From positions 1,424,001 through 1,488,000 of the forward strand of contig OU612072.1 in the NCBI GenBank assembly GCA_914767715.1: a stretch of DNA of 64,000 bases. The letters are read 5' to 3'. Source of the DNA: Membranipora membranacea. Lineage: Eukaryota > Bryozoa > Gymnolaemata > Cheilostomatida > Membraniporidae. The notes below the pieces were generated by a model. It searched no databases. It worked only from the letters and a program-made list of their open reading frames with translations, and was not told the origin of the DNA. This document shows, piece after piece, positions 26,701 through 54,533 of this stretch (within the stretch, counting starts at the first letter, position 1; the number at the start of each line of letters is the position of its first letter). The position numbers were made by a program, and so were the translations under genes.

Positions 26701-29700
26701 TGACATTCCTAACATGTTTTTTTTATTTGTATGATTACAGGTGCACATACACAAACCAGTGAATAGTAAGCCAGGTAACTCTGAAGTGTATGTAGTCTGT
26801 AAATCTAGGGTGGAGACAATACCTAACAATACCCTAACACTACTCAGAGATTCTATATGTGAGTTACTTGATATTCATTATGAATTTGATAATGTCCGAC
26901 AAAGCGTGATCATTGTTTTGCACTGATCTGTGTTTGAGATCGTGACAACAGACCTGGTGTTTCTCAGTGACCTACTTGGAGTGTGCATATTCGAAAAAAG
27001 CTATTTGGGTGATTGGTGTTCGAGATAAAATTTTGACTATCCCATAATCATGTTGTATCTTGATTATGTTAACGGCGTTACCTTCAGAAAATACTTTGTC
27101 CAGGGTTTGTCAATTTCATGACAGTGGTAGAAGTTGTGTCCTCATTGATATTAGTTGGGCAACTCCTAATTATTTGATGTGATTAAGTTAAAAGAAAGTT
27201 ACTCATCGGGAAGTATGATCACAAGCTTGATTATTAAAATTTCCATGTTCATAAGGTAGATTAACATCAATTGCTACAGTATTGAACCATAATTTGTTGT
27301 TAGTTTCTTGTAATGTGAATATAACAATGATACATCGTACATTCGATACTTCAGGACTCCCTTGTTAATTACCGACTGACTTGCCCATTATTTTCAGCCA
27401 GTGGTGAACCGGTCATAAAGTTCTCATCTATACCAGAAACCTTCCTACTGCAGATTAGAGCAGCAGCTGATCAGTTTAAGTCAAGTCAGATGAACACAAT
27501 CTCAACAAACATCGCAGCGTTCAGCGATAATAACCTGGTGAGCTATCGCTCTTCCCATTTAGAACTACACTTTGTCATGAGATGTATCTTGTTTTTTGAA
27601 ACAGAATGTTGCCATTCTTACAGAAATTGTAATGAGTTGAATGCCCTGCACCAGCTAGCTGTATTTACACATGCTGTGTTCTTAGATGGGTGATATTGTT
27701 TAAATACTTAAGTATTACTTAGGTACTGGACGTGCTAAAGAGGTTAGATAGATACTGGTTAGCATACATGCCCACCAGACTCATATTCATCAGGGGAACG
27801 TACTAAATACACTGTCCATGCTGGGTATCTTGTAATAAGGATAGTTGTATGACTGATTCGTCATTGCGTCTTATGTTAACATTTTGCTGAATTCAGATAC
27901 CGGTTATAAGTAATGAGAAGAACGCTCAGGATTTTATACAGAAGATGAGACTTAGAAGTATAGATAGAAATCAGAGTATTGTACAGACTGCCAGCTTTTT
28001 CACACATCATCATAGACACAGGGTCAGTATACTAGTCATAGCCGTTGATGCTGAACTCCAGAGTAACTCAGTGTTGTGATTTTTTCAGTGAATTGTTACA
28101 ACTCCTATATTGGAATATGACAAACTTCTAGCGTAAACAATCATTGTAAAGCCTGTGTTGTGCCCCCTGATGTTTCCTCATATTTCATAACCTTCACCTC
28201 CTTCTCACTTTATATACACCCTTGAACGAATGAATTTATATGTTTTTGTTCAAACCATTAGAAGTGGCCATCTCTCAAATAATTTTAAAGAAATCGTTTA
28301 TCTAAATATTTTCTTGCTGCAGAATGATGTGACAATAAACAGCTACGGAAATGAGACAAAGTCTCTAGTATGGCAGCCACGTAAGAGAAGGCTGTCAGGG
28401 AACTTCTCAGAGAGATCACAGCAGACAGCTGAGAACAGACTGACAGAACTGATGAGTTCAGATAAACAGCCGACTCAGTCAGTCAAATATCTCCATAACA
28501 TAGAGGTAAATCTCTCTATACCATAGAGGTAAATCAGAGGTAAATCAGATATTTTACTGTAGATTAATTTCTTTCAAAAACAAGCTTTTCCTTTTATTTT
28601 ACTTCATTATGACATGTTGATGGAAAGTATTATTGGTGGCCAAAACTTACTCTATACACATTCTTTGTCAATATGGTGCTGATGTCATTAGGCCGAATTT
28701 TGCATCCTGCATTTATTCATTTGGAGAGTAGTGGTCTTGAAACCTAGGCAAGATGTTAGATGTTGCCCTTGTATTTTGTTTGACTTAAATTGATATGTTG
28801 ACATTGAAAGGATCGGAATATTGCTATAGCACCTAGCCTGTGACTGTCTCCCTGGGTCGGGTTTGGGTTTGATACCCTGATCCAGGCTACAAAATCTGAA
28901 AATCAGGGCAAGATGTATGCTTTGTCATCTTAATTCCTTGTAGACTACCAGTGCTGACAATCATAGTCCACTGGATGCGCTCAGATTAGTAAATGTGATC
29001 ACTATACCCCGGGCAGAGATCAGTACTAACGATGAAAGCAGAGTTTACAACAGCTGCTTTTGTGAGGGCAAACTACTAAGTGATTATAATGTACTCGCTG
29101 ACACTCAATGTGACATTATATCTGAGGTATGGATCAGAGTATTCTTTGGGTACTGATTGGTTATGTTGTAATATATTGTCATATTGACAAACTGTGTCAT
29201 TGCAGGCAGTTTAAGTGCCTCAAATATGCTTTAGGTGTTAGTTGTGGCATAACATTTTCTGCCATTTGGGTTGATGATGGAATGTCACAACCAATGACCC
29301 GATCATTCGCGCGGGGTTAAGAGTCTGGGGGGCTCGAACTGAGGCACTCTGAGCAGTAATAATCACTGCAAATATGTCCCTTTAAAAGAAATTAATTTTT
29401 GTAGATTCCTTTGACATGCGTTGATTATATGGAACTTGAAAATTGAAGAATATTAAAAAGTTCAAAAGTGTTTGGATATTAGAACAGTTCAACAATTTAA
29501 CAAGCTGATCATTATTTTGAAGGATATACAAAGTACAGACCTACATGATATAGAGGAGTTCACTCTGTCGTCATTAGAAGACTTTCACGTGATGATCAAT
29601 TTTAGTTCTCAGGTAAGAAGTGGCTGTATATCTTATCCTGTGACAACTTGTGACCTATACGGAGTTCGTTAAAATTATGAATGATTTCTCAGACTCAGAC

Positions 29701-32309
29701 TCTGCTGATATTGCTTGTATTCCAGTACTGGCCACAACCCAACCCCTGCTCTGTGACTGATTATTGAATCTTACCACTAGCAATGTGAGCAGATTACGAA
29801 GGTAAAAATTACCCTGCAGAAGTGAGGAGTAGTCACTGGATGTGAGCAGAGTCTGATCACCTGATCTACTCTTTGACCAGAATGCTGCAGCGTTAAATGT
29901 TTCGTCGAGATGGATATATTGTTGTAGTGATATGATAGATATATTGTTGTAGTGATATGATAGATATATTGTTGTAGTGATATGATGGATATATTGTTGT
30001 AGTGATATGATGGATATATTGTTGTAGTGATATGATGGATATATTGTTGTAGTGATATGATGGATGTATTGTTGTAGTGATATGATGGATATATTGTTGT
30101 AGTGATATGATGGATATATTGTTGTAGTGATATGATGGATATATTGTTGTAGTGATATGATGGATGTATTGTTGTAGTGATATGATGGATATATTGTTGT
30201 AGTGATATGATGGATATATTGTTGTAGTGATATGATGAATATATTGTTGTAGTGATATGATGGATTTTCCTTTTGGTGCGGTTATCTATTTACCAAGCCA
30301 AGAACCTGTTCATTTAAGTTCGTTCGAGTTTTGTTTCCATTCAGATTCCTAACGAAAACAGCCCATGGTCTGGTGTAGCTTATATGTGGGCTCTGATTTG
30401 CCGATCGATGCCAACACATTTTTTATTTACATGGATGGACCGAATATGTGGTTATTGTATATGGTAGATAACTATAATACTTTCTTCTTTAATTACTGTT
30501 CCAGGTGTGCCATGAGGCTGAAGTTTCCAGTCCAAGACTTGTCGTATCTTCAGATATGACTTCTAATCTTCAACATTTTCATCAGATCTTCCAGGTTAGT
30601 ATTGCATACTATCAAAAACAAAATATCATGTGACATAATGACCATGAAGCAATCTAGCCTGTCTTGACAATCTTTGTTGGCCCTTGCCACAACAAAGGCT
30701 GACTTTGAGGCACTCACCCTTCATACACTGGGTAATTTATTTCCCTAAACTGCCATCACGGTGTACACTGGGTTAGTTTAATAAAACCTTGTAAACCTTT
30801 GAGGTATGATAAAAGAAGAAAGTACTAAATGGGGAGTGCTCAATTGTTGTCCGGGTTGTTGGTAGTGGTAATTCATTATTGAGTTAAATCTGAGTATAGA
30901 GTTTGAGCTTTATAGAGTTTGAGCTTTATAGAGTTTGAGCTTTATAGAGTTTAAGCACTACTATTACTTTTGTGTCTGCTTCAGATTATCAGATCTGATG
31001 ACAGCTTACTGCTACACAACATGAACTGTATAAATAGACTGGGAGCTGGAGTCGTCTTCTTACTCTGGCATTCTTTTGATGAGGTAATTATGGATCTTTT
31101 GACGAATCAATCTTAGCGATTCCAATGTGGACAGGGCTATGTTTATTCTATTACTACAATGTTGTGTTTTACTACTGCATACTTATGTATGTCACACCTA
31201 TAAGAGTTCAAAAACAAATTATCCATGTTGTTATATTAGTATAAAAGTGTGTGCAACTGAAATTGTTTTGCTTCTGTCTTTGATAGCTATTTATAACAAT
31301 CTCTGCAGAAACTCCTTCTATCCCACCATATTTCCCATATGATGCTTTACTCCGTAATCTGTACATTTACTAGGTGGCTGTCGCTGGGCACAATAGTACT
31401 AACTGCAGGCCGTCCATACTATTCAAGCGCTGTATCCTCTCTGATCAAGAGAGAACAGAATACAGTGAACACCTTAAATCTCTGCTCAACCCTATCCTCG
31501 CTGATGATAATACAAAGGTGCTTACTGTGGTTTCCACACCAGATATCATTAAATGTAAGTATAATGAGTCAAGGCATAGATGTAAAAATATAAATTCCTG
31601 ATTGAGTGTTTGTTTGATGGAATGTTTATGAGAATCCCATATGCACTTTTTAGGTTTCCTGTGTGATCAGATCAATGAAATTGAATTGATCTACCTGGGA
31701 TGAAGTGGCTGTGAAGGTTGTTTGCACAATTTATTAAGCGAAATCAAATCTGTAAGACTTGATCCCTAAACTTCTGCGGGATGGTTGGCTAACAACAGAC
31801 AGAATAGCTGCTGTACCGTCTCACAATCTAATATTAAATAAAGGATGAGATGGGTATTTTGAGCCGAGTGGATATGCTGAAATAACTTTCACCGCTTTTT
31901 TCTCTCCCCCATGTATAATATTAACTTGACATTACATTTAATGATAAAGCGTAAACTATAATTGCGGATGTTTTATGAAGACAAAAGAAAAAATATCTTC
32001 ACTTACCCTTACCAGTCTGCAATCACCATACTGCACAATTATCATTGACGGGATATTAATAAATCATTCTTTCACAAATAAATTGAACTTTGATCAAATT
32101 TTAGCAACATGATCGCTGCTTTTCTAATGTAACTGTAACTGTAACTAACGGATATGCGACTTGTATTTCCTTTAGGTACTTCTCTGCACAGTACATTTCT
32201 CTGTGACATCAACAATGAGACTCTGAGACGAGGTGTGAACAAGCTCATCATGATACAGCGGGAGAGTCAGCAGGGGACGGGAGCGGGGGCACCCTCACTC
32301 ACAACATGA
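23782..32309 (+). CDS. CMTR2: Cap-specific mRNA 2'-O-methyltransferase 2, complete copy
   Basis: Sixteen coding exons are 23782-23886, 24292-24405, 24787-24976, 25415-25505, 25995-26121, 26271-26468, 26741-26858, 27398-27537, 27897-28022, 28323-28505, 28944-29126, 29523-29612, 30505-30594, 30985-31083, 31374-31554 and 32176-32309. They join in frame to about 722 residues (human about 770). The enzyme methylates the ribose 2'-OH of the second transcribed nucleotide of capped mRNA. The Rossmann methyltransferase shows the SAM loop HLCEAPGGF, WLANTLNPYHE, DNTGD, VTADGS and VIKMFTTFE. The K-D-K catalytic triad is Lys94 (NAWCKF), Asp213 (TADGS) and Lys253. The C-terminal half is the degenerate second methyltransferase-like domain, ending with MIQRESQ like the human IIQRERE. 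A possible 12-codon exon at 31287-31322 lacks a GT donor in this copy (see findings). AATAAA lies at 32662. The gene converges on the lectin receptor. Confidence 0.93.
29909..30264 (+). repeat. 25-bp minisatellite in CMTR2 intron, about 14 copies
   Basis: Tandem units of GATATATTGTTGTAGTGATATGATG (period 25) run with few substitutions between coding exons 12 and 13 of the complete CMTR2 copy. The homologous array in the second copy (42499-43554) is about three times longer. Confidence 0.95.
30897..30953 (+). repeat. 16-bp tandem repeat in CMTR2 intron, about 3.5 copies
   Basis: The unit AGTTTGAGCTTTATAG is repeated before coding exon 14 and ends with a variant TTTAAGC. The same array, of equal length, is present at about 44250-44306 in the second copy. 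Confidence 0.8.
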
Positions 32310-32756
32310 TAGTCTCCTAGAGGAACCTCGGTGTACTCTGTGTGTCTGAGATAAGATGGAAGTCCTGGTCAGGCTGCTACAAAACATTTACTTCGCTCTG
32401 TCATTGATGCTGCCACTGGTCGACAGGCTGCCGTTTTGTTCTATAATTCTTTCGTAACTGATCTATAACTCATTTTTATACATATCCTCCCTTGCTGTTG
32501 ATATTTTTATACATGGTTACATGATATATAACATCGCTATTGACAGCCATTGATGCTCAAGGTGATCATCTATTAGAATTCTATGTGAACAGCAATCTCA
32601 CACAATAGTTTTGTTTATAAGATCAAATTCTTCTATATTACGATATGTCTTTAATATAATGAATAAATGTGAAAGTTTATCCTAACAGTCTAAAGATAAT
32701 CTGAGTTGGCCATTACGACATAAGGATGCAGAGCCAGTCAGACCAAGTGGAAGGAA

Positions 32757-33003
32757 GTTTGTGTGAGTGGTGTGAGTGTGTGGTGTGAGTGGTGTAAGTG
32801 TGTGGTGTGAGTGGTGTGAGTGTGTAAGGGTGTGGTGTGAGTGTGTGGTGTGAGTGTGTGGTGTGAGTGTGTGGTGTGAGTGTGTGGTGTGTGTGGTGTG
32901 AGTGTGTGGTGTAAGTGTGTGGTGTGAGTGGTGTAAGTGTGTGGTGTGAGTGTGTGGTGTGAGTGTGTGGTGTGAGTGGTGTAAGTGTGTGGTGTGAGTG
33001 TGC
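32757..33003 (+). repeat. GT-rich microsatellite-like tract, copy 1
   Basis: Irregular tandem repeats of GTGTGAGTGTGTGGT and GTGTAAGTGTGTGGT lie between the converging 3' ends of CMTR2 and the lectin receptor. The homologous tract at about 59424-59603 is shorter. His/Thr/Ser-rich reading frames through it are artefacts of the repeat. The surrounding 32310-34304 has the CMTR2 3' UTR and no further gene. Confidence 0.9.
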
Positions 33004-34304
33004 AAGGGTAAGGGGAGTCAAGCTCACAGACTGTAGTGATTAGTTTCCTTTATATAAAAACTGCTGAGAATCTGTCAGGAATAGAATAGCAAAAAAACTT
33101 TTGAATTTAGTTTATTCTGTTATTTTGGTATCAATAATATTCAAAGAGTACATAACATATTTATTACACTAAGGCCTAAAAATCAATTGGACACTTTACC
33201 CATAGATACTTTTTGGAAGGCCACTTTCTGGGAGGGCTCTGCTCCCTTCACAGACCCACCATGCGAGAGAGTTCAGGAAACCCAAACTGTAGGGGAAAAT
33301 ATATTTCACTGGTCATAATCAATTGATGATAACACAGCTGAACTGGCTTTCAAACTTATTGTGATATGGTTTAAATTTGATAATTACAGTGAAAAAAATA
33401 AAAAAATGAACTTTTACTGCAGGATATGGATCAATGAAGTTCAACTGTGGGATTCCGGGTTATGGAGTCACCACATTAACTCTCCGCTACTGAGATCTGT
33501 GCTCACGAGCTCGGTATGATGATTCTCACTATATGACACTGACTTATTTACATAACGGTGATCTCATTTGTTCGAGGTTAAACACTTGACTCAAGAGCAT
33601 GCCTTTTAATTCTTATCAAGTTTAACATTAAACGCAATTCAACTTAACAATGCACGTCTTATTTCTACAAGTCATGCTCTCTAGTTAATGATACCATGCA
33701 TGCTGGCTTTAATTCATTTAACTCAATTAGATGATGGTATAGATAATCCAACCAAATGTTATACTGTGCCATTATTAAATAATAAGGCAAGTTCTATTTC
33801 CCTATAAATATCACTAACGTACAATAAATGAAAATATTATAATAATAACTCATAGAACTTTCATGTTTAAAAAAACTGACCTGTCTCCAAATGAAGTTGC
33901 AAACAAAGAGGCCCTTACATTGGTGTACCATGTTCTTATAAAGCATGGTTCCAGACACCTTAGAAAAACTGCTGACGTACACCAGCAAAAAACAAGAATA
34001 AAACACATTTCTCAATTGCCGCAAAAAGAGGGTTGATTAGCCGCAAGCGTGGGTTGATCGGCCGCAAGCGTGGGTTGATTGGCCACAAGAGTTGCTAATT
34101 CTGAATTGTCTCTGTTGGCGCCAATGTTAAGAATAGAATTTAGATTGGAATATATTTTCATATCCCGGATTCGAGGTGATATGCACCGGCTGGTAACTGC
34201 GTGTCCTCCAGTCAAGGTTTGAGTGTACTGATGATGATGCTGGTATATTTAAAGATATTGGATGTTGTTATTGTGTCGGATGTTGGTATAGACAATTCTC
34301 CTGT

Positions 34305-37300
34305 TTACTGCTGTGTATACGACACAACAAAAGATGGATTTGTTACGTAGACACCATTATTGTCTGGTAGAACACCAGAATCAATACTGGAACATATCGA
34401 TGGAGTATGGTAGATTGAATTGATTGATTCTGAGAGCTCAAATGAATTGGCAGTAGTAGTTGAGTTTGGTGCTACACTTTCCTGTATAAATGGCACATCA
34501 ACATAGTCATATTCTTGGATTGTATCCGTATTATCACTACTAATTCTTAATTTTCTTTTCCTGTAGCAGAGACAGCAGCAAACCATTCCTCCAATTACCA
34601 CACTAACAGTGACACCGATGACAGATAAACCAGTTATTGTCCAAACTCCTGTAGTCCTACAAATAAAAAAAACTTTTTGGTATGTCAGACGGGCAGGTAC
34701 TAGAGTTAATTTGCCTAAAAAAACTTAACACAGTTGTTGTGCTCAATGAACTCTAAACTGTTAGAAGCACCTTACCTCTGACGTAACGTTATATCTGACT
34801 CGATGACAGTCTGTGTGGTAGTAGAGGTCCTGGCAGTCATCATCCTGCAATATTATAAGTAAACCATGAGTTTGTATGTTGGCAGATTGAATTATTTGAG
34901 AGTCTCTTAAATTCAAACAAACAGTGTTTTTTCTTTCCTCTAATATTCTGGCATCGCTTCTGACTGACTGACTTGACACACTCGCTTATTTATACCGCGA
35001 TGACAAAGGGCCCTTGCCATTCAGAGCACACTATAGACCATAGCAGTTATAAAGTTACCCTTATGGATGAGTAAATAATTGTCGCTTCAGCGGGTATCAA
35101 ATTAATTTTGACTCATCAATTATCTCACTTTTCACATATGTAACTGTGTGAATCTCCGCATGGAAGATTCTTCCATTGACCATCACTAAGCTGTATACAG
35201 CTCTCCTCTCCACCCTCACTGTCAAGCTCCCCCACATACCAGTCACTCACTGTTATGTTATCCTGACTCACACCGTCCCATCTCCAAACTCCTGACTGCT
35301 TCTTACCACCGATCCAGAACCTGTCTTCTATAACACCTGCAATCACGAAAACCAATGTATTTAAATTTAAAAGATCTCAGAGATGTGACCAATGTGTTTA
35401 TGGGTATAGCAATGCTGTATTGTATTTAAGAACAATGCTGTAGAGGCCTTGAGTGCCGTAAGACATGTCCCATACAACACCTGCCACATGTCTTCATCAA
35501 CATCTGTGTCAGCGACGGTTTTTTATGCCCATTCAGAACTGCATAAAGTTTTGTAATGTTTCAAAATTGGAAATCCTACATAAGCCTACAGCCCTACACT
35601 GTTTCATACATAGGACTGTCCAGCACCCAGAACATGCCAAGAAGTCCAACAAGTAGTCAGCGGACTGCAGTGGGAATGCTGAAGTCCGGCGCTCTTACCA
35701 ACTGAACCACCTCCTACTCAAACGCATTCCATTCTTTCGTCACTCTTCATCTCCAGATGCCCAGTAAATATGAGACACATTGTTACACAGAATCAGAAAA
35801 AAAGCTCTAATATAATCATCTCCAAACTCGGAAAAAAATCGCATTTCTTCTTTCTCACACAGTATAAGATTTATAGACAGTACAATGTATTCTGGTAAAG
35901 CGTTCAAATCGGGAGAATAAGCTTTCACCTATCTCATTAATCCGTTTGTATTGATACATGAGACAACTGAAACCATGACCTTTTTTAAATTATATATATA
36001 TACTTAATTATATTCACCGGCCAATGTATCATGACAAACGAGGTCGTGGTGACAAAGTTTGCGCGAAGCACAAATTTATTGTTGTACTCAATTATAGCTT
36101 TCATAAACATGGAATTGGTCTGATTAATTATCTGCCAAACTACTTGGTAGTATAGATGCAGTTTCACTGTGAGCAGTTGGGTACATGGGCGCAAATAACT
36201 GAATAGCTTACCTGTAGGGTTGAAAATTTTCCAGACACCAGTAGAGCCCCACCCAGTAGAAACAGCCATGCTTTGGATAACTCTCAGATTGTTTTCTTCA
36301 CTCTCTAACAAGACTGAGTCTTGTTGGTTGGGGCCAGTGACACCGGTACCTACTTTGATCTTACATCCATACCAAGATATCCAGAAATATCTAAACAAAA
36401 GAAAGATTTTTAACATTAATGAATTTGTTTCGTCTTTCGAACAGTATGTTCTTCTAGCCTGGGCAGGCTGTTGGGGTTGGTTGGTTGTCCCTTATCCCTG
36501 AGGGCCTGCCTATGCTTCTGTTCCTCCCTGTTGCTAGTCTGAGCCCCTCAGACTTTTGCCCCTGGCCTGACGGCCCCCCCCCCCCCGGTATAGCCTTACC
36601 ATAACTTAACCAAAAATAGAAGCAATAAACTCAAGTGCTTCTATATTATGTTCAAAATCTAAAGAAAAGTAAATTTTTTGTTATGATTTGTCAATTGAAT
36701 ATAAAGTTATTGTATTACTGTTCTCACTGCAGCTCTTCAATTTATGTTCATATTTTTATCATCAGTCATCAACGTCATAAACATATAAATATTTATATGT
36801 TTATGATCAACTTAAATAATCTTGTAAAGAAGTTTCACGTTTTTTGGATCAACACAGTTTTAATTCAGTGAAGGCGTTGTCATAATTTTGTATCAGTATT
36901 TCATTTCTATCTGACATTTTGAACAATAAAACCAGCAAATTTATTCTGGTGGTCATCAGTATTTATGATAAATGATAACAGCCTGTTATGTCTCACCTTT
37001 CCTCAGAGCAGTCTACAACACCGTGTTTTTTTAAGGAGGTTATATTTCTGCCCAGCAGTTCTTCTTTGATTGCAGATTGATTGTTACCCCATCCACCCAG
37101 GACAACAAGATACGCAGCTCTGCAAAATAAGTCATGGCAATATTATCCTGGATCTGAGAAGAAGTAGGAGCAGAGTGCTAAGTGCTCAGACGCATTGGAG
37201 CAGTCTGAGCACTTAGACTACACTTAATGACTCTGCTCTTACTTCTTTCCTTTTCTCTTTACACTTAATGAAGTCTAAGTGCTCAGACGGCTCCGATGCA

Positions 37301-39187
37301 TCTGAGCACTTAGACTACATTAAGTGTAAAGAGAGATGGAAATCGTTGCAATAAATTTCCAACAAAATGACACAGCATACAAAAGACAACTTGAGCGTTC
37401 TATGAGTATTACTCACGTGGTAATTCCTTTCTCTCTAGGTTGAAGGGTAACATGTACATCACTACACGCTCTGACGGAGAATTTGACATAGTTCCGATTT
37501 TTCAGATTAAGGTGTGGAACTGTTTGGTAACCATAAGTGTCTGATGTCACCATGTTTTGCACTTTCTCTGAGAAAAAAACAAACAAAGGCAACTTACAAC
37601 TTAAACTTACCAAAAATAAGGGCATGATGTAATTTCAATTGGGAGTAAAAGCAGATGTTCCACAGAAGTTTCTGCATCAAATTAACATTAATAATAAAGA
37701 TAAACTAGATGCGTTTATATTGGCGAGCAAATATGAAGTCATACAACCGGCCATATTGGATATCGGATATTGTGACATAAAAGTTGATGATGTCATAAGA
37801 TTAGGTATATGTCAAAACCCCCGTATGGCAAGTTTTAACTCAATCGCTTGATGATAACTGTTAATCAGCAGCAATTTACTGTGTATGGCGGCCATATTGG
37901 ATATCGGGTCATGTGACATCATAATCGATGATGTCATAGTATTCGGTACATGTCATAACCCCCCATATCCAAAGTTTTAACTCAATCGCTTGATTGGAAC
38001 TGTTAATCTGCGATAACTTACTGTATATGGCGACCATATTGGATATCGGGTCATGTGACATAAATTTTGATGATGTCATAAGATTTGGTATTTGTCATAA
38101 CCCGCAAATCCCAAGTTTTAACTTGATCGTATGATTTTTTCTCAATATGTCACCAAATGAAAACAAAAAAACCTCCATTAATTAGCAAGTTACATAACAT
38201 TTCAAAAATTCATCTTGTAATTCCTCATAAAGACATATGGAACTATGATGTGACCAAGTTCCACCACATGCTGCCAGGTAGTTCTTGACTTAGAGAAGCC
38301 CGAAACCGTAAAATTTGTTGCAATAATAATAAACCCAACCCATGCAAAACAAAAGTAATACAACTTTGTTGTATGACTAATTATCTTAAAAAAACATCTC
38401 AACATAATACACTTCAACACTGAAAGTATTGCCTGCCTTCACAGGACAGTACGGCATCTTTTAGTACAAAAGGCAGATACGAACTATATGTTTTTCTGTG
38501 CCTGCTAATTTGTCGTTTTTAACCCACAGCTCGGTCTATTACACAGCTTGAGGCTAAATATAACGACTTTCATACCTGTGTACAGAAGAAAGCCTTTTAA
38601 GTAATATATCATCCTCTGATTGGGCAGAGTGACAAGGTCGCTGCCATGTGACCTACATGACGCCTGAGCGTTCTCCCACGATTGTTTGCTCCAGAACACT
38701 TTGATACACGTATTATCTGGAGTAAGCGCCCAGCCATATGGGCATGACACTGACGTAGCTCTGATACCAACTGTAAAATCAATGTAGAATATGAAAATGC
38801 TTGTCTAAGATGGCGCTTGTGTAAGATGGCGCTTGTGTAAGATGGCGCTTGTGTAAGGTGGCGCTTGTGTAAGATGGCGCTTGTGTAAGATGGCGCTTGT
38901 GTAAGATGGCGCTTGTGTAAGATGGCGCTTGTGTAAGATGGAGCTTGTGTAAGATGGCGCCTGGTAATTATCTGTTGTCTTTCCACCTATCATATGACCC
39001 CTTGTTTCTTACTTGGCCATACATTCTTTCATGAATACAGAAGCAGAGAGAAGCTAGATTCAGAATTGCCAGCATTTAGCCACAACGATAATTTTTCATA
39101 ATAGAATGTACCATATAAATCACACCATGAATCACACTTACTTCCACAGAGGTTTAGTAAAACTAGAATTAGCCATCCGCCTAGCAT
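34305..39187 (-). CDS. Membrane receptor with a FAMeT domain nested inside a C-type lectin domain
   Basis: Eight exons (39187-39142, 38770-38576, 37567-37417, 37119-36997, 36390-36212, 35336-35129, 34844-34776, 34656-34305) join without a phase conflict into 440 residues. Exon 1 is a signal peptide (MLGGWLILVLLNLCG). Exon 2 is the first half of a C-type lectin domain (CPYGWAL, WENAQASCRSHGSDL). Exons 3-5 (about residues 81-231) are a farnesoic-acid-O-methyltransferase-like domain (Methyltransf_FA): YVKFSVRACSDVHVTL, VVLGGWGNNQSAI, YFWISWYGCKIKVGTG, MAVSTGWGSTGVW. Exon 6 is the second lectin half (RFWIGGKKQ, WRWDG, SCIQL, SYICEK). Exon 7 is a Thr/Ser stalk. Exon 8 has the membrane span (TITGLSVIGVTVSVVIGG), a Cys cluster, basic stop-transfer residues and an 85-residue tail with EYDYVDV and NPSF. 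No EPN or QPD calcium/sugar motif is visible, so sugar binding is doubtful. FAMeT is used here as a domain name; enzymatic activity is not implied. It is likely a cell-surface recognition receptor (inference). Confidence 0.85.
35660..35720 (-). repeat. tRNA-derived SINE fragment in lectin receptor intron
   Basis: On the minus strand it starts GTAGGAGGTGGTTCAGTTGG and continues AAGAGCGCCGG, matching the 5' half of the SINE at 21751-21923 but lacking the B box. Its duplicate is at 61377-61436. Confidence 0.6.
37156..37333. repeat. Twin hairpin element between FAMeT exons
   Basis: Two adjacent stem-loops lie in the intron between FAMeT exons 1 and 2. In the first, 37158-37174 pairs with 37231-37247 and encloses CTAAGTGCTCAGA / TCTGAGCACTTAG. 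In the second, 37255-37286 pairs with 37301-37333, again containing CTAAGTGCTCAGA. The four CTAAGTGCTCAGA arms alternate in orientation. It is probably a foldback-type transposon remnant; the same structure is at about 62917-63092 in copy 2. Confidence 0.75.
37750..38150 (+). repeat. Three diverged tandem copies of a roughly 140-bp unit
   Basis: Each unit contains CCATATTGGATATCGG, a GTGACAT, GATGATGTCATA and a later AGTTTTAACT, with starts near 37750, 37890 and 38033. It lies in the large intron between the first lectin half and the FAMeT cassette, and recurs at about 63507-63910. Confidence 0.8.
38808..38965 (+). repeat. 16-bp minisatellite AAGATGGCGCTTGTGT, about 10 copies
   Basis: Near-perfect head-to-tail repeats fill much of the first intron of the lectin receptor gene. 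Reading frames through them give repetitive peptides that should not be taken as genes. The unit contains AAGATGGCG, similar to the core of a YY1 site. Confidence 0.95.
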
Positions 39188-40202: not shown

Positions 40203-40250
40203 ATGGTGACTCAGTTGGTTAGAATGCTGTTCCTTTAGCATGCAAAGAAT
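40203..40250 (+). repeat. SINE fragment at the duplication junction
   Basis: The stretch ACTCAGTTGGTTAGAATGC followed by GTTCCTTTAGCATGCAAA matches the tRNA-like part of the SINE family at 21751-21923. It ends exactly where the second duplication block begins. 39188-40202 otherwise shows no supported gene. Confidence 0.6.
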
Positions 40251-42498
40251 GCACCAGAAAGCTGTATTTACACATGCTGTGTTCTTAGATGGGTGATATT
40301 GTTTAAATACTTAAGTATTACTTAGGTACTGGACGTGCTAAAGAGGTTAGATAGATACTGGTTAGCATACATGCCCACCAGACTCATATTCATCAGGGGA
40401 ACGTACTAAATACACTGTTCATGCTGGATATCTTGTAATAAGGATAGTTGTATGACTGATTCGTCATTGCGTCTTATGTTAACATTTTGCTGAATTCAGA
40501 TACCGGTTATAAGTAATGAGAAGAACGCTCAGGATTTTATACAGATGATGAGACTTAGAAGTATAGATTGAAATCAGAGTATTGTACAGACTGCCAGCTT
40601 CTTCACACATCATCATAGACACAGGGTCAGTATACTAGTCATAGCCGTTGATGCTGAACTCAAGAGTAACTCAGTGTTGTGATTTTTTCAGTGAATTGTT
40701 ACAACTCCTATATTGGAATATGACAAACTTCTAGCGTAAACAATCATTGTAAAGCCTGTGTTGTGCCCCCTGATGTTTCCTCATATTTCATAACCTTCAC
40801 CTCCTTCTCACTTTATATACACCCTTGAACGAATGAATTTATATGTTTTTGTTCAAACCATTAGAAGTGGCCATCTCTCAAATAATTTTAAAGAAATCGT
40901 TTATCTAAATATTTTCTTGCTGCAGAATGATGTGACAATAAACAGCTACGGAAATGAGACAAAGTCTCTAGTATGGCAGCCACGTAAGAGAAGGCTGTCA
41001 GGGAACTTCTCAGAGAGATCACAGCAGACAGCTGAGAACAGACTGACAGAACTGATGAGTTCAGATAAACAGCCGACTCAGTCAGTCAAATATCTCCATA
41101 CCATAGAGGTAAATATCTAATGTAGTCAGTGGTAGCAGATATTTTACTGTAGATTAATTTCTTTCAAAAACAAGCTTTTCCTTTTATTTTACTTCATTAT
41201 GACATGTTGATGGAAAGTATTATTGGTGGCCAAAACTTACTCTATACACATTCTTTGTCAATATGGTGCTGATGTCATTAGGCCGAATTTTGCATCCTGC
41301 ATTTATTCATGGGGAGAGTAGTGGTCTTGAAACCTAGGCGAGATGTTAGATGTTGCCCTTGTATTTTGTTAGACTTAAATTGATATGTCGACATTGAAAG
41401 GATCGGAATATTGCAATAGCACCTAGCCTGTGACTGTCTCCCTGGGTCGGGTTTGGGTTTGATACCCTGATCCAGGCTACAAAATCTGAAAATCAGGGCA
41501 AGATGTATGCTTTGTCATCTTAATTCCTTGTAGACTACCAGTCCTGACAATCATAGTCCACTGGATGCGCTCAGATTAGTAAATGTGATCACTATACCCC
41601 GGGCAGAGATCAGTACTAACGATGAAGGCAGAGTTTACAACAGCTGCTTTTGTGAGGGCAAACTACTAAGTGATTATAATGTACTCGCTGACACTCAATG
41701 TGACATTATATCTGAGGTAAGGATCAGAGTATTCTTTGGGTACTGATTGGTTATGTTGTAATATATTGTCATAGTGACAAACTGTGTCATTGCAGGCAGT
41801 TTAAGTGCCTCAAATATGCTTTAGGTGTTAGTTGTGGCATAACATTTTCTGCCATTTGGGTTGATGATGGAATGTCACAACCAATGACCCGATCATTCGC
41901 GCGGGGTTAAGAGTCTGGGGGGCTCAAACTGAGGCACTCTGAGCAGTAATAATCACTGCAAACATGTCCCTTTAAAAGAAATTAATTTTTTTAGATTCCT
42001 TTGACATGCGTTGATTATATGGAACTTGAAAATTGAAGAATATTAAAAAGTTCAAAAGTGTTTGGATATTAGAACAGTTCAACAATTTAACAAGCTGATC
42101 TTTATTTTGAAGGTTATACAAAGTACAGACCTACATGATATAGAGGAGTTCACTCTGTCATCATTAGAAGACTTTCACGTGATGATCAATATTAGTTCTC
42201 AGGTAAGAAGTGGCTGTATATCTTATCCTGTGACAACTTGTGACCTATACGGAGTTCGTTTAAATTATGAATGATTTCTCAGACTCAGACTCTGCTGATA
42301 TTGCTTGTATTCCAGTACTGGCCACAACCCAACCCCTGCTCTGTGACTAATTATTGAATCTTACCACTAGCAATGTGAGCAGATTACGAAGGTGAAAATT
42401 ACCCTGCAGAAGTGAGGAGTAGTCACTGGATGTGAGCAGAGTCTGATCACCTGATCTACTCTTTGACCAGAATGCTGCAGCGTTAAATGTTTCGTCGA

Positions 42499-43554
42499 GA
42501 TGGATATATTGTTGTAGTGATATGATAGATATATTGTTGTAGTGATATGATGGATATATTGTTGTAGTGATATGATGGATATATTGTTGTAGTGATATGA
42601 TAGATATATTGTTGTAGTGATATGATGGATATATTGTTGTAGTGATATGATGGATATATTGTTGTAGTGATATGATGGATATATTGTTGTAGTGATATGA
42701 TGGATATATTGTTGTAGTGATATGATGGATATATTGTTGTAGTGATATGATGGATATATTGTTGTAGTGATATGATGGATATATTGTTGTAGTGATATGA
42801 TGGATATATTGTTGTAGTGATATGATGGATATATTGTTGTAGTGATATGATGGATATATTGTTGTAGTGATGTGATGGATATATTGTTGTAATGATATGA
42901 TGGATGTATTGTTGTAGTGATATGATGGATATATTGTTGTAGTGATATGATGGATATATTGTTGTAGTGATATGATGGATATATTGTTGTAGTGATATGA
43001 TGGATATATTGTTGTAGTGATATGATGGATATATTGTTGTAATGATATGCTGGATGTATTGTTGTAGTGATATGATGGATGTATTGTTGTAGTGATATGA
43101 TGGATATATTGTTGTAGTGATATGATTGATATATTGTTGTAGTGATATGATGGATATATTGTTGTAGTGATATGATGGATATATTGTTGTAGTGATATGA
43201 TGGATATATTGTTGTAGTGATGTGATGGATATATTGTTGTAATGATATGATGGATGTATTGTTGTAGTGATATGATGGATATATTGTTGTAGTGATATGA
43301 TGGATATATTGTTGTAGTGATATGATGGATATATTGTTGTAGTGATATGATGGATATATTGTTGTAGTGATATGATGGATATATTGTTGTAATGATATGC
43401 TGGATGTATTGTTGTAGTGATATGATGGATGTATTGTTGTAGTGATATGATGGATATATTGTTGTAGTGATATGATTGATATATTGTTGTAGTGATATGA
43501 TGGATATATTGTTGTAGCAATATGATGGATATATTGTTGTAGTGATATGATGGA
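42499..43554 (+). repeat. 25-bp minisatellite, expanded copy, about 42 units
   Basis: Same unit and intron position as 29909-30264. A higher-order pattern is visible: a block with variant units (GTGATGTGATGG, AATGATATGATGG, TATGCTGG) appears twice, about 350 bp apart, indicating expansion by block duplication. The 345-residue frame on the minus strand is a by-product of the 25-bp period. Confidence 0.97.
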
Positions 43555-45244
43555 TTTTCCTTTTGGTGCGGTTATCTATTTACCAAGCCAAGAACCTGTT
43601 CATTTAAGTTTGTTCGAGTTTTGTTTCCATTCAGATTCCTAACGAAAACAGCCCATGGTCTGGTGTAGCTTATATGTGGGCTCTGATTTGCCGATCGATG
43701 CCAACACATTTTTTATTTACATGGATGGACCGAATATGTGGTTATTGTATATGGTAGATAACTATAATACTTTCTTCTTTAATTACTGTTCCAGGTGTGC
43801 CATGAGGCTGAAGTTTCCAGTCCAAGACTTGTCGTATCTTCAGATATGACTTCTAATCTTCAACATTTTCATCAGATCTTCCAGGTTAGTATTGAATACT
43901 ATCAAAAACAAAATATCATGTGACATAATGACCATGAAGCAATCTAGCCTGTCTTGACAATCTTTGTTGGCCCTTGCCACAACAAAGGCTGTCAAGACAG
44001 ACTAGCGCCATTATAGATCTTGAAATCTATAATTATTTGTTTATTTTACTCTGACTTCGAGGCACTCACCCTTCATACACTGGGTAATTTATTTCCCTAA
44101 ACTGCCATCACGGTGTACACTGGGTTAGTTTAATAAAACCTTGTAAACCTTTGAGGTATGATAAAAGAAGAAAGTACTAAATGGGGAGTGCTCAATTGTT
44201 GTCCGGGTTGTTGGTAGTGGTAATTCATTATTGAGTTAAATCTGAGTATAGAGTTTGAGCTTTATAGAGTTTGAGCTTTATAGAGTTTGAGCTTTATAGA
44301 GTTTAAGCACTACTATTACTTTTGTGTCTGCTTCAGATTATCAGATCTGATGACAGCTTACTGCTACACAACATGAACTGTATAAATAGACTGGGAGCTG
44401 GAGTCGTCTTCTTACTCTGGCATTCTTTTGATGAGGTAATTATGGATTTTTTGACGAATCAATCTTAGCGATTCCAATGTGGACAGGGCTATGTTCATTC
44501 TATTACTACAATGTTGTGTTTTACTACTGCATACTAATGTATGTCACACCTATAAGAGTTCAAAAACAAATTATCCATGTTGTTATATTAGTATAAAAGT
44601 GTGTGCAACTGAAATTGTTTTGCTTCTGTGCTTTGATAGCTATTTATAACAATCTCTGCAGAAACTCCTTCTATCGTACCTTATTTCCCATATGATGCTT
44701 TACTCCGTAATCTGTACATTTACAATAGGTTGCTGTCGCTGGGCACAATAGTACTAACTGCAGGCCGTCCATACTATTCAAGCGCTGTATCCTCTCTGAT
44801 CAGGAGAGAACAGAATACAGTGAACACCTTAAATCTCTGCTCAACCCTATCCTCGCTGATGATAATACAAAGGTGCTTACTGTGGTTTCCACACCAGATA
44901 TCATTAAATGTAAGTATAATGAGTCAAGGCATAGATGTAAAAATATAAATTCCTGATTGAGTGTTTGTTTGATGGAATGTTTATGAGAATCCCATATGCA
45001 CTTTTTAGGTTTCCTGTGTGATCAGATCAATGAAATTGAATTGATCTACCTGGGATGATATGGCGGCCCATAGCACCTTTATTAATGCGCATTAGCTAAC
45101 ATGCTAACATGCTAAGTCGCTAATGCGCATTAGTTAACATGCTAACTCGCTAACTCGCTAATGCGCATTAAGAGATTAAAGATTTCCAGAAATATTTTTG
45201 GGTCTGTCTTTATGCATGTGCGGGTTATCACTGTCTTGATATGG

Positions 45245-45289
45245 CCTCTGTGATTGGTCTTACTTTCAAAATAAGACCAATCACAGAGG
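45245..45289. repeat. 18-bp-arm hairpin in transposon unit 1
   Basis: CCTCTGTGATTGGTCTTA at 45245-45262 is the perfect complement of 45272-45289 with a 9-base loop. The same hairpin is found in unit 2 at about 50946-50991, just inside the left terminal repeat. Confidence 0.9.
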
Positions 45290-47014
45290 TCATACTAATC
45301 TCTGCTCTACTACTCCTCCACCAAAAAAGGATTTAAACAAAGCAATGTAATTTGTTGTGTTGTTGCTGATGGAGTTTCATTGTAAATGACACCTGTATCC
45401 TCATACCATTCATCACTGAGTATGGTAAGGCTATAACTCTCTGGTTTGGTACAACATTAGAGCGTGATGGACAAAGTTTGCAGACTATTCCATCAGTTAT
45501 ATGTACTCAAATGATAACCTTTCAAACTCAGTATGAGTAAGTTAAGTATATGATCAAGGAGTCCTTGATATAATATTGATTAGCAACTCGCATAGTATAG
45601 TAGTAGGCCTACCTCAGATTGATTTTGCACAGTTACTACTACATATTGTGGTGTCAACTGTGTGTTAATGAAGTATCTACTAAGCTGTTCATAGGCCTAT
45701 GTCACTAGTGTTATCAGGGAACCAGACACACACAAGGCTGCAACTCATCAAATCAACTGTCAGTGACCTGCTGTCTGTGAATGGACATGTTTTAAGTTGG
45801 AAAACATGGTTTTTTGTCAATGGTTTGCTCATGTCGCTCTAATCAAGGTATTAAGGAAGATATATATGTTTGGTTAGTTGTAGGCCAAGACGCAAGGGTC
45901 ATTGTTGTGGTTCTATTGGTATGGTTTCGTCTCATGATCAATGTGAGAGATATTTAGAAGTATCTAATCTAATGCAACATATATTGGATGTATATATAAT
46001 TGGAGGACAAGTAAATCCCGGCATGTTAAAAAAGCTAATGCCAACTTAGGGATTGAGTTCCAGTTCTAGAACTTCAGAGAGTGCCTACAATCCCAATCAA
46101 TGAATCATATTCTTAAAGGCTTAAAAAGAGGTTTCAACAAATGAAGTGCAATGCTCATGCAATGATGCCCAGGTCACACCACCTGGTCGCACACAAATAT
46201 TCAGCCAAATTATCCTTTATAGCAAGATATTTGTTACATACCCATGGTTTTAAGGTTTTTTTGTCTTTTTCTCAAGGTAAGTGGAAATTGCATCACTTTT
46301 TGTCTTCAGGCGCCCATGTATTCAGAGTGATTGTCAATGTGATTCACAAACATGAGCCTAGTGGATAATTTTATGGGAGTAGCCTACCCTCCCTGGGATT
46401 GTCAGGATGGGACCATTACCGTAACCATACTATGCCATTTATAAGCTTTACCTTCTTCACATCCAAAATCCCAGTCTTCACACCTTGTATTCAGATATTT
46501 AGCCTTGATTTGAGCTTTGTGTCTAAGCCTTTACTCTTAGTAGTTCAAAGTTTGGTAAACAATCTGGTCAAAGTATTGTCATTGTAGAGGCCAGCCCAGT
46601 TCGGATACAATTTGTCCTCTGCCCCCAGAGATCATTGGATTTGACCAATAAGATTTAATTATTTTTATTGAACCCCTGACTGAAGACCAGGCTTTTGTCA
46701 ACTTTAATTAAAATAGGGCCCTAATAATGAATTGCCAATATTATCCGGCTGGCGGGAATAGACGCAGTAAATTGGTAAAAAAACAGTTACTTCACACCTT
46801 GATTCACCCTATTTTCCGCTTTATACTGTAATATATATATTAAAATGTATCCTAAAATGAACACTATCATAGATTTGTTGCACTCAAACCCCTTGTCAAT
46901 ACAATTGGCAATACAGTAAAAATGACCAGCGGTTTGTTAGGGTCCTCAAAATAACAATTTTGTGCCCAGTGAAATCCTTGGACTGAAAAAATAATTCAAT
47001 TGTAATATTTTAAA

Positions 47015-48369
47015 GATGATGGTGATGGAGAAGAGAGCGATGGTACAAATGATAACAATGGTAGGCATGATGACAATGTTATACCTTTATCACTACCAAC
47101 ATTAGATCCAAAGACTGCTTTTGGTGAGTCACAATTTAAGATTTATTCATGAGATAAAATACATTACCAACCTAGAGACCGATCAAAGAATAATCATAGT
47201 AGCGGGCCCACCAGATGAATCTGACTCAGAATAGATATAATATTATAATGAAATTCAAGTCAGCCTCTTCCCAAAACATCTGATAAAATGATTTGCCATC
47301 ACTGATTTTGACAATACAATAAAGTAGCCCAGTTTGGTAGCTGGCGTCACAGGAAGAAGTCATCATTATCAGCCAGGTCTACTTTATTGACATCGTCTTG
47401 GAGTTGCAATGTCACGGAAAAGGGGATGACAACTCCAACCATCTATGAGCAGCTATACGTTATTTTTTTAGGTATCTGCAATATCAACTAACATCTGTTG
47501 ACAGTTATTGGCCACCAAGGTTTCAATTTTGAGATGGTTCCTGCCCAAGATGAATATCATGGATCCTATCCGTTGTTAACCCATAGTTACATTATAAGCT
47601 GCCACTTGTGTTGTTAATTTTAGAAAGAGTGATAATGCGACTTCAGAATTAGTACCCGACATTTCACCAATTGATAACACAAAATTATTTTGCTTTAGAT
47701 GAAGGACTCACTTTGACCCCAAAAAAAAGAAAAAAAAAGCCAATAAGTTCTACTCAGGAAGCACCGACTGGTACATGTAAGTAAACATTTTCTTTGCTTA
47801 GTCTCAGTACAGAAATCAAGCTCGTTGCAGCAAAGATACAGTATCCAGTTGATCTTGAGACTTGAGCAGTATTGTTTGACTGAAAGGATAAGATTGGGAT
47901 TGGCCATAAAGACCTATTTGTGTTGTATCCTCATACTAATTTTTATTGCAGATATATTGACAATTGTGTGTGGAGTTCGGATAAACCTCAAATCAGAGGA
48001 TTGAGAGTGAGTTGTTTGTATGTTGATAAATATATTAATACTACCTGGTTGGCGGCGACCATTTCAATCTACATTGCTCAGTTTTTTTATCTGTTTGTCA
48101 AGGAGAAGAGTTTGAGAGAACTTGGTTTAGATAAATAGAAATTACTTAAACTTAGTTGAGCTAGGCTAAGGCCAATCTCTTGCATTATTAGGCTATGCTA
48201 TGTTTTACCCCAATTTTGTTTGCCTGCATGCACTGCCTTTGCTGCCTGCTAGTAATGGATATGTCTATCTTTCGAAGGTGCTGAGAGGGCACTGGGTTAC
48301 AATGATACTGTAGTGATCGAGAAGATGGGGGATCTCTATAGGGCTGCATCTAATCAGAATCGACGTTAA
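47015..48369 (+). pseudogene. Spliced coding-like exons inside transposon unit 1
   Basis: Three stretches look like exons joined in frame: about 47015-47123 (acidic, DDGDGEESDGTNDNN then VIPLSLPTLDPKTAF, donor GTGAGT), 47699-47777 (DEGLTLTPKKRKKKP, a nuclear-localisation-like run, donor GTAAGT) and 48279-48369 (ERALGYNDTVVIEKMGDLYRA, ending at a TAA stop). All three have plausible acceptors. They look like the C-terminal part of a nuclear protein, possibly a host gene fragment carried by the element or the remnant of a transposon protein. No upstream DNA-binding domain was found. In unit 2 the second exon has lost one A and is frameshifted. Confidence 0.45.
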
Positions 48370-49675
48370 CTTCAGTGTCTTAAAAAAAGATGTAAGTAAA
48401 CCAGCTAATGGCCTGTCATGACAACCTTGATGTTGGTTATGTTGGTTGAGGAGGGGGCACCAACAAATTTTGTCAAGATATGCTATCTGGATCAGTACAA
48501 TGACATGACACACAGATTTTAAGATTGGCATTTTCAGGTAGTCAAGTTTGCTTGAAACACTAAAGACTGTGTAGGGTCTTTCAAGTAAGTCCTAGCTTAG
48601 TTTCTCTGCAAAAATAACAAGCAAATAATAAAGGTCATTGCTAGGCAAATTCTAAGTGCGTGATCACTTTTTACTATATGAGCCCTACTTTGAGTGTACC
48701 ATCTGGCTCTGTTACCATTCAATCTAACGAATCGTTCAACTATTGAGTCGAGACCTCTGAACAAGAGAGGACAACTCCTTAGAATACAAAGAAGTCTTGA
48801 AAGAAGCACTGTATCCCTGCTGTATCAGTGTAGTTGGACCAAATGCATTGTAGGAAACCAACTGTGTTGTTATTCTCCTTTTTAGAAAGTCATAGAGCTT
48901 ACTCTGAATGGTGAGAGCGATGACTCCTGCAGCAAAGCTATCAAACCAATTAAATTTTTCTCCTCCTCCATTTTTATATTTAATAAACAAAATTTTTCAT
49001 CATATGTATATATTTATCATTAAACAGGTATTTTGCAATAAATAAACAACCAGAAAAATCACCACACTCTTTCATAATAAAATGACAATGAGTTTAATTT
49101 GAAATTTGAAAGTATCATTATTTAGCTTTGGAGCAGGGAGAATTCTCCCCGTTGTGAGAAGAAACTGTACAAGTGTTGTGCGGATTTGTGCAGTCTTGGA
49201 TACTCTCTCTTCATACTTCGACCCAAGTATATAGACATGTCTTATGTTCTGTACTAACCCAACAGTTCTGTAGGCTAGCCACTACACTATATGCAGCGGT
49301 TTCACTGTGGGAAAAAGATTATCAAAGATTAATGTAATGGAGACATAGTATGGAATATCTATAAAAGATTATTAAAACCGTAAGCGGAAACAATTTAGGT
49401 CCCGGAACATTGGAACAATATATCAAACCAAGACAAACGTAATATGAGGTTTGGAGCTGGACTAAATTAGCCATCATGATTTTATTATCAAGAAATAATA
49501 TCACATCATATGTCACACAAAATCTAAAGGTATGGCAACTAAAGGAGAGTTGTCTACTCTTTGGAAGAATAGGGTGATCCACTTGAGATGACAGTAACAT
49601 GAATAAGGTGAGAAACCAAAATACATATTAAACTAATCACTGAATGAAAAGTACACAAAACATTGCACATTATTA

Positions 49676-49862
49676 TAAATGCGCATTGCTAGAAATGCGC
49701 ATTGTTATAACTGCGCATTTCTAGAACTGCGCATTCTTAAAACTGCGCATTCTTAGAACTGCGCATTCTTAAAACTGCGCATTCTTAGAACTGCGCATTC
49801 TTAAAACTGCGCATTCTTAGAACTGCGCATTCTTAAAACTGCGCATTCTTAGAACTGCACAT
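49676..49862 (+). repeat. 16-bp TGCGCA minisatellite in transposon unit 1
   Basis: About 11 copies of ACTGCGCATTCTTAGA and ACTGCGCATTCTTAAA occur in tandem, alternating GA/AA. The GCGCAT core recurs in the terminal palindromes TAATGCGCATTA. The unit 2 array at 56417-56656 has more copies. Confidence 0.9.
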
Positions 49863-49951
49863 AACAAAATGATTGATGGAAATTTGTCATACAACATTGA
49901 CTGTAATGAAGTACCAGACCTGCCAAAACTCCAGTCACTAATTTTGAGTCA

Positions 49952-50065
49952 CCCTATTTTCACACCTCAAATAACACAGGTTGGATCACAGGTCTACTCC
50001 AAAAACCTGGGATTTTGGAGAAGACCTGTGATCCAACCTGTGTTATTTGAGGTGTGAAAATAGGG
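49952..50065. repeat. Perfect 44-bp-arm hairpin in transposon unit 1
   Basis: Bases 49952-49995 are the exact reverse complement of 50022-50065 with a 26-base loop. A further imperfect complement of the loop and arm follows at about 50066-50107, so alternative folds are possible. It lies about 0.65 kb from the unit's right end. Confidence 0.95.
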
Positions 50066-53000: not shown

Positions 53001-53672
53001 AGAATAGATATAATAGTATAATGAAATTCAAGTCAGCCTCTTCCCAAAACATCTGATAAAATGATTTGCCATCACTGATTTTGACAACACAATAAAGTAG
53101 CCCAGTTTGGTAGCTGGCGTCACAAGAAGAAGTCATCATGATCAGCCAGGTCTACTTTATTGACATCGTCTTGGAGTTGCAATGTCACGGAAAAGGGGAT
53201 GACAACTCCAACCATCTATGAGCAACTATACGTTATTTTTTTAGGTATCTCTGCAATATCAACTAACATCTGTTGACAGTTATTGGCCACCAAGGTTTCA
53301 ATTTTGAGATGGTTCCTGCCCAAGATGAATATCATGGATCCTATCAGTTTCGTTGTTAACCCATAGTTACATTAAAAGCTGCATGCCACTTGTGTTGTTA
53401 ATTTTAGAAAGAGTGAAAATGCGACTTCAGAATTAGTACCCAACATTTCACCAATTGATAACACAAAATTACTTTGCTTTTAGATGAAGGACTCATTTTG
53501 ACCCCAAAAAAAGAAAAAAAAAGCCAATAAGTTCTACTCAAGAAGCACCGTCTGGTACATGTAAGTAAACCTTTTCTTTGCTTAGTCTCAGTACAGAAAT
53601 CAAGCTCGTTGTAGCAAAGATACAGTATCCTGTTGATCTTGAGACTTGAGCAGTATTGTTTGAATGAAAGGA

Positions 53673-54533
53673 TAAGATTGGGACAGAAAAATAGTCAGGC
53701 AATTTTGGACTGAAGCTGAGATCTGCATTTGTTTCTAACATTTATTTGGAATACCTCAGACACGCGCATATGTGGTTCAATATCTCAGTGCACTCTTTAA
53801 AACATGTTCATCGAAGTAAGATGAAGATGGATTGAACCTACAGCAGGGCAATTTGAAAAGGAATAAAGACAAGCTTAACTTTTCAGAAAACTCATCATCT
53901 GAAATCCCCTTTCCCATAAGTTGGTCAAATATCTAAATAAATTCCAACCCAAAGATTGGCCGAGGTCACTGCAGATTAATCAATTATGTTGCTGGTGATA
54001 AATGTGACCAACTTGATCAGAAAAGATACGGTTATTTCCGAAATATAATAGCTCAGTCATGTTTGGTGTTAAAACTTTGGAGTTTGGACCCACTCGCTAC
54101 CTTTGTTATGAAACTAGATTTGAGCTTGAAGAGACTTATTGGTCACATTGTCAGCTTAACAATGGTATACTGAAACCACACAACCCTATTTGTAATAAAA
54201 TGCGTAGATTTCTTATGATTTGCCCCCCTCTGTAAAAGCGCTGGACAACTCCTGATTGAACTGTATTGTACCTTGATCCGTAATTTATAGCTTTTATCAG
54301 AGTTTGATATGTCAATTATATCATCAAATTTATTTCAGATAGATATTTTAAAATTATGAAATACAGGAGATCATATCCCAGTTCCTTCTAAGACTTTGAA
54401 GAGATAGATGATATACCAGCTCACAACCCGTTATTCAATTTGAAGTATGAACCTGTATAGGTTTTACCTAGGTATGGGGAAACGAAATTCTTAATCATTC
54501 AAAGTTTGAGATTCAAAGGAAGAAAATGATATT
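53673..54533. other. 860-bp segment present only in transposon unit 2
   Basis: Units 1 and 2 run in parallel up to AAGATTGGGA and resume at TTGGCCATAAAGACC. In between, unit 2 has about 860 bp missing from unit 1. No coding region, terminal repeat or target duplication is evident, so insertion into unit 2 and deletion from unit 1 are both possible. A second unit-2-only stretch of about 100 bp lies near 54836-54930. Confidence 0.75.

Follow-up and report, generated by a model that had tools for sequence, protein, structure and literature searches.

How can a protein gain parts inside a small binding fold and still fold? The question is raised by a gene of the bryozoan Membranipora membranacea, here called W1, which lies in a stretch of 64,000 nucleotides (assembly GCA_914767715.1, contig OU612072.1, positions 1,424,001 to 1,488,000). 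This whole stretch is referred to as the window, and positions are those of the window unless a chromosome is named. C-type lectin domains (CTLDs) belong to the binding folds that animals use most, and they usually occur as units in a row. In W1, the CTLD appears to be interrupted by a complete Methyltransf_FA domain (FAMeT, PF12248). It is very likely that the two domains form one transcript and one polypeptide, as judged from gene structure and domain content. It is also likely, if somewhat less firmly so, that the whole FAMeT cassette occupies a phase-1 intron at the point of the CTLD where helix 2 gives way to strand beta-2, and that it has been copied in place to give one, three, or four cassettes.

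Gene structure and domain order

W1 occupies positions 34305 to 39187 of the minus strand. Its eight exons, separated by introns that are all of the GT-AG type, join into a coding sequence of 1323 nucleotides (including the stop) with a single open frame of 440 residues. This bears out the product proposed in an earlier, sequence-only reading of the same DNA. Exons 1 to 7 end in phases 1, 1, 2, 2, 1, 2, and 2, respectively.

39142-39187, minus strand: exon 1, carrying the start codon and a hydrophobic, signal-like segment, end phase 1 (GT donor, open frame, hydropathy)
38576-38770, minus strand: exon 2, first half of the CTLD, through helix 2, phase 1-1 (gene model, Pfam, alignment to solved CTLDs; counterparts in nine other loci)
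37417-37567, minus strand: exon 3, FAMeT part 1, phase 1-2 (gene model, Pfam, paralogous loci)
36997-37119, minus strand: exon 4, FAMeT part 2, phase 2-2 (gene model, Pfam, paralogous loci)
36212-36390, minus strand: exon 5, FAMeT part 3, phase 2-1 (gene model, Pfam, paralogous loci)
35129-35336, minus strand: exon 6, second half of the CTLD from strand beta-2, start phase 1, donor phase 2 (gene model, Pfam, alignment to solved CTLDs)
34776-34844, minus strand: exon 7, Thr-rich stalk (gene model)
34305-34656, minus strand: exon 8, transmembrane helix and an 86-residue tail with the overlapping motifs YDYV and YVDV (gene model, hydropathy)

The product runs from a hydrophobic N-terminus through the split CTLD and the stalk to one transmembrane helix and the tail. 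Two hydropathy peaks, one N-terminal and one at residues 336-354, give the predicted topology of a single-pass receptor. Two of the introns carry tandem repeats: a 16-base unit repeated 10 times in intron 1 (38799-38960), and a 142-base unit repeated 2.7 times in intron 2 (37748-38123).

Residues 89-230 match the FAMeT profile over positions 2-139 of its 140 (Pfam E-value 1.1e-23; 84 bits, with a cut-off of 24.2). The earlier assignment of exons 3-5 to this domain is thereby upheld, and its stated weak point, that a domain search might find no FAMeT match, falls away. The lectin profile (Lectin_C, PF00059; cut-off 22.6) matches the full product in two stretches, with 55.7 bits and the best at residues 236-301. 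Once exons 3-5 are removed, a single match covers positions 2-107 of 107 (67.8 bits, E-value 1.7e-18), and the shortened product aligns to solved CTLDs across the junction of exons 2 and 6. The full-length match confirms that one lectin domain is divided between these two exons, as had been proposed. In the W1 chain itself, the continuity of the CTLD is broken by an insert of 150 residues, and its membership of the class goes by the sequence of the two halves.

The insert lies between ..YYLKGFLLYT, which we take to be the helix 2 side of the CTLD, and ..DRFWIGG, presumably the strand beta-2 side. The residue at the junction of exons 2 and 3 had been read as Gly. It is Glu (LLYT-E), and Gly arises only when exon 2 is spliced to exon 6. 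All six CTLD cysteines, among them those of the two core disulfides, are kept in all nine members of the alignment made here (nine rows, covering the family described below other than its loci H8931 and I8944). The first and last of the core cysteines in W1, C54 and C299, are assumed to correspond to a disulfide pair of known CTLDs. Because these two flank the insert on opposite sides, the CTLD fold should, on sequence grounds, close around it.

A search for a solved relative of the FAMeT domain returned only a chain named lysozyme (E-values of 0.00017 with a single sequence and 0.016 with a profile). No stretch passed alone, and the candidate was rejected. Pattern searches for FAMeT relatives gave 10 hits in viral and 16 in prokaryotic contigs, of which none was confirmed.

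A family of nested loci on chromosome 8

A whole-genome search with the FAMeT part yielded at least 49 exon-level matches, at least 47 of them on chromosome 8 and at least two on chromosome 1. The 47 matches on chromosome 8 group into 11 loci: W1, W2, A5215, B5223, C5254, D5267, E5275, F8866, G8900, H8931, and I8944. Exons 3, 4, and 5 are followed by exon 6 in all 11, and exon 2 is present upstream in 10. Nine loci have one cassette each, B5223 has three, and E5275 has four, making 16 in total. Recurrence in 11 loci, with one, three, or four cassettes, supports the inference of the sequence-only reading that the FAMeT domain and both lectin halves make up one polypeptide. The one gene which that reading described is real; what it overlooked is a second eight-exon copy, W2, extending from position 60031 to beyond the window end, and the family along the chromosome.

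Splice sites of the GT and AG type occur at or near the predicted places in the expected phases (exon 2, 1-1; exon 3, 1-2; exon 4, 2-2; exon 5, 2-1; exon 6, starting in phase 1). The script accepted only GT and AG in the expected phase, such that this result shows that such sites exist, not that other phases fail. The modelling covered the loci other than two exons: the exon 4 of the first B5223 cassette, whose acceptor was left out on account of an in-frame stop, and exon 2 of H8931, which was found by tblastn. Exon 4 begins three residues earlier in F8866, G8900, H8931, and I8944. The longest array, E5275 (at about chromosome 8:5275376-5284562), reads for 733 residues without a stop from exon 2 to its end, across all four cassettes. 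Upstream of it lies a first exon that looks like a signal exon and ends in phase 1, and first exons resembling this one were seen for F8866, G8900, A5215, B5223, and D5267.

The family also bears on whether the assembly itself could have produced the arrangement, either through a misjoin that created the nested order, or by placing two alleles, W1 and W2, in one haplotype. These copies are 97.6% and 98.9% identical over their two main blocks, and the assembly report (PMC10290214) states that curation took out 17 haplotypic duplications. However, paralogs at 5.2 and 8.9 Mb that have diverged to 44-72% identity in single exons show this nested order too, which a misjoin does not account for. An artefact is therefore very improbable as the source of the architecture, although W1 and W2, taken by themselves, may be either separate genes or alleles of one gene.

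Conservation of both domains

DNA comparisons between diverged copies (W1-A5215, W1-F8866, and A5215-F8866, by blastn) align only in pieces that fall on exons 2, 3, 5, or 6, with an overhang into introns of at most seven bases. Ratios of nonsynonymous to synonymous substitution (dN/dS, Nei-Gojobori) are low for both domains: 0.22 for FAMeT and 0.09 for the CTLD between W1 and A5215, and 0.16 and 0.14, respectively, between A5215 and F8866. Between W1 and F8866, the CTLD gives 0.23 and FAMeT is saturated. For closely related FAMeT pairs, the values lie between 0.15 and 0.47. Several of these comparisons have a dS above 1, dS is zero for the CTLDs of B5223 and E5275, and the CTLD pair F8866-G8900 was left out. 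Given the exon-limited similarity and the low dN/dS, both the CTLD and the FAMeT parts are, as far as their sequences indicate, kept as protein under purifying selection.

These results can be set against the possibility that the FAMeT exons are a separate gene, or a dead copy, within a lectin intron. One B5223 cassette does contain a stop, and the gene structures described here come from genomic sequence alone. Against this stand the phase-compatible exons at the same place in 11 loci, the selection on the protein, and the open frame across four cassettes. A start or signal exon serving FAMeT alone was not noticed, though no search was aimed at one. The idea of a separate gene, which the sequence-only reading had named as the outcome that would overturn it, was rejected because the arrangement recurs in 11 loci and is under selection, and its probability is as close to negligible as that of any alternative considered here.

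Origin of the nested arrangement

The FAMeT cassette consists of three exons whose outer boundaries are both in phase 1. It is consequently symmetric, and can be inserted, multiplied, or skipped in a phase-1 intron without changing the frame. An un-nested FAMeT domain is found on chromosome 1, at 2.624-2.637 Mb, in the same three exons, ending in phase 1 and following a completed CTLD. Four CTLDs at this locus, those brought in by the FAMeT search, were examined. In one of them, a phase-1 intron falls at the corresponding site (..FLKAKLDP/L/GLGVWIGL, compared with ..YLKGFLLYT/G/VIEDRFWIGG in W1). Because of the symmetric cassette and this matching intron, insertion of the cassette by exon shuffling into an existing phase-1 intron is the likely origin, as far as gene structures can indicate.

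On one strand, the region chromosome 1:2624001-2637000 holds matches to CTLD, CTLD, FAMeT, F5/8C, WSC, and further CTLDs in a row, which are perhaps one large multidomain gene. A lone FAMeT-like exon lies elsewhere on the same chromosome (chromosome 1:21135477-21135638), scoring 26.9 bits in one search and 23.8, just under the cut-off, in another. No family exons were found within 3 kb on either side of it.

A tree of FAMeT sequences places cassettes 2 and 3 of B5223 with cassettes 2 and 4 of E5275, respectively (support 96/95 and 90/90). The tree has 15 units, excluding I8944 and the first B5223 cassette. Six of its 12 inner branches are open, the un-nested unit sits on a long branch, and no root is claimed. 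On the basis of this pairing across two genes, multiplication of the cassettes within the lectin seems to predate the split of B5223 and E5275, with one cassette gained or lost since.

Several observations weigh against the proposal of a whole cassette inserted at one site and kept within the lectin. Three of the four chromosome-1 CTLDs fail to match W1 in place and phase, as judged by eye: one has a phase-1-looking donor about six residues earlier, another has its intron elsewhere, and the third has a nearby intron apparently in another phase. Exon 2 of I8944 was not found in the stretches searched, up to chromosome 8:8956000, and exon 4 gave no blastn match at the DNA level in the three comparisons of diverged copies. 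The nested cassettes need not all function: W2 lacks a Trp that is otherwise invariant across a six-sequence FAMeT alignment, and exon 4 of the first B5223 cassette (chromosome 8:5224.4-5224.6 kb) has an in-frame stop where the matching E5275 exon is open. The B5223 gene, or its first cassette, may be dead or skipped.

Lastly, exons 3-5 of W1 can themselves be skipped in frame. Joining exon 2 to exon 6 gives a plain CTLD receptor of 289 residues, and this could be the main product, with FAMeT included only in certain tissues or states. Skipping both keeps the frame and restores the full-length lectin match (67.8 bits), and insect famet genes are described in PMC10015273 as alternatively spliced to give one or two PF12248 domains. 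On the other hand, the FAMeT part is under purifying selection and has been multiplied in place in two genes, and the splice sites around exons 3-5 are ordinary in look. Neither fact speaks to how often the exons are used. Optional use of the cassette is thus a possibility of some substance, if an unlikely one, and the nested protein is the preferred reading.

Membrane-anchored and secreted-looking forms

In known CTLDs, an EPN or QPD-type motif together with the WND residues holds calcium and sugar. This site is degenerate in W1 and W2, which have ELD and WKN instead of EPN and WND. EPN or QPN plus WND are kept in the seven other aligned members, and also in H8931 and I8944, as seen from their second halves. 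The nine members outside the window differ in their ends as well. All have a stop within 11 codons of the last ICE-[KRM] of the lectin, and a search for an exon 6 donor in the phase of W1 found none in eight of the nine and only a displaced, unconvincing one in F8866; other phases were not sought. Because of the early stop and the lack of a convincing donor in that phase, these nine look secreted. W1 and W2 have a membrane anchor, as predicted from sequence.

A pattern search of the W1 tail found no immunoreceptor tyrosine-based inhibitory or activation motifs (ITIM, ITAM) and no YxxM, the only motifs being the overlapping YxxPhi motifs YDYV and YVDV. Signalling of the ITAM or ITIM kind was consequently rejected.

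A role can be proposed for both forms. The secreted-looking members would bind sugar with calcium through EPN or QPN and WND. W1 and W2, with their degenerate site, would recognise a changed ligand, and the YxxPhi motifs of the tail would serve uptake or sorting. The FAMeT domain may be a non-enzymatic binding or spacer module projecting from the lectin. Such a role in recognition and uptake is put forward tentatively, as somewhat less probable than its alternatives taken together. A broader suggestion is more doubtful still. Under it, the intron that separates helix 2 from strand beta-2 would be a socket for symmetric cassettes, which could be gained, multiplied, or skipped there in frame. 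The animal would thereby diversify a repertoire of surface and secreted recognition (for example, of microbes, or of colony self and non-self), in which the split lectin would be the anchor and the FAMeT array nested in it the reading surface.

The name of the Pfam family would instead suggest that the nested domain is a methyltransferase acting on farnesoic acid or a similar lipid, delivered by the lectin. Silkworm FAMeT6 has reportedly been linked to juvenile hormone titre (PMC10380277). However, FAMeT domains also occur in secreted adhesive proteins, shell proteins, and CPAMD8, and methyltransferase activity is doubted for the FAMeT family itself in PMC10015273. The enzymatic reading is not supported, and is regarded as highly unlikely.

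Relation to known proteins

The best solved sequence matches of the W1 lectin are the yolk sac IgY receptor, LY75, MRC2, and selectins. Like known CTLDs, it matches PF00059 over the full length once the insert is removed, and it keeps the six cysteines and the WIG motif. Unlike them, the family has one, three, or four whole domains between helix 2 and strand beta-2, with ELD and WKN in W1 and W2.

The FAMeT part likewise resembles other FAMeT proteins in matching nearly the whole profile, and arthropods also have tandem copies and alternative copy numbers. The reported contexts of PF12248 are arthropod FAMeT (with DUF3421, or with two PF12248), sea-star footprint proteins, mollusc shell proteins, and CPAMD8. 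In these proteins, as far as described, the domain stands beside other domains, whereas here it lies inside one. The chromosome-1 locus shares the three-exon split and the phase-1 end, and one of its CTLDs has the matching phase-1 intron. In contrast to the chromosome-8 family, its FAMeT stands behind a CTLD that is already complete, and F5/8C matches come next.

No earlier description of a CTLD-FAMeT protein was seen among the literature matches listed, which is weak evidence of absence. The nested CTLD combines two known domain families in an apparently undescribed arrangement. Within this single genome, the arrangement recurs at 11 loci, has had its cassette multiplied, and is under selection. 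A family in which up to four complete domains break into the CTLD, the intron phases are orderly, and some members are membrane-anchored and others secreted-looking makes a clear case of domain nesting, and a loose FAMeT module and a candidate empty intron site persist in the same genome. The family would allow tests of how much splitting a small fold tolerates while still closing, and of what the functionally orphan FAMeT domain binds.

The second copy and surrounding duplications

W2 is also on the minus strand and has eight exons encoding 439 residues. Two of its exons lie beyond the window end.

chromosome 8:1489033-1489078, past the window end, minus strand: exon 1 (gene model)
chromosome 8:1488355-1488549, past the window end, minus strand: exon 2 (gene model)
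63174-63324, minus strand: exon 3
62753-62875, minus strand: exon 4
61969-62153, minus strand: exon 5, two residues longer than in W1 and lacking the invariant Trp of the FAMeT alignment
60846-61053, minus strand: exon 6
60493-60561, minus strand: exon 7
60031-60373, minus strand: exon 8, last few residues different

About 880 bases adjoining W1 (33446-34324) have no counterpart next to W2 (60031-60045). The break point between the copies falls in exon 8 and alters the last few residues of the tail. The window also contains a mosaic of segmental duplications (27647-33445, 40250-45058, and 45059-60045; 91-99% identity), in which 27.6-33.4 kb pairs with pieces at 40.3-45.1 and 57.6-60.0 kb, and 45.1-50.8 kb pairs with 50.8-57.6 kb. 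A satellite with a 25-base unit has 14 copies at 29909-30265 and 42 in its duplicate at 42499-43555. A reverse transcriptase-like open reading frame fragment on the plus strand (58024-58779) scores 22.8 bits, under the Pfam cut-off of 29.6. Further away, exons of the autophagy gene ATG5 lie on the plus strand at 17257-18636, with matches to UblA, the helical bundle, and UblB.

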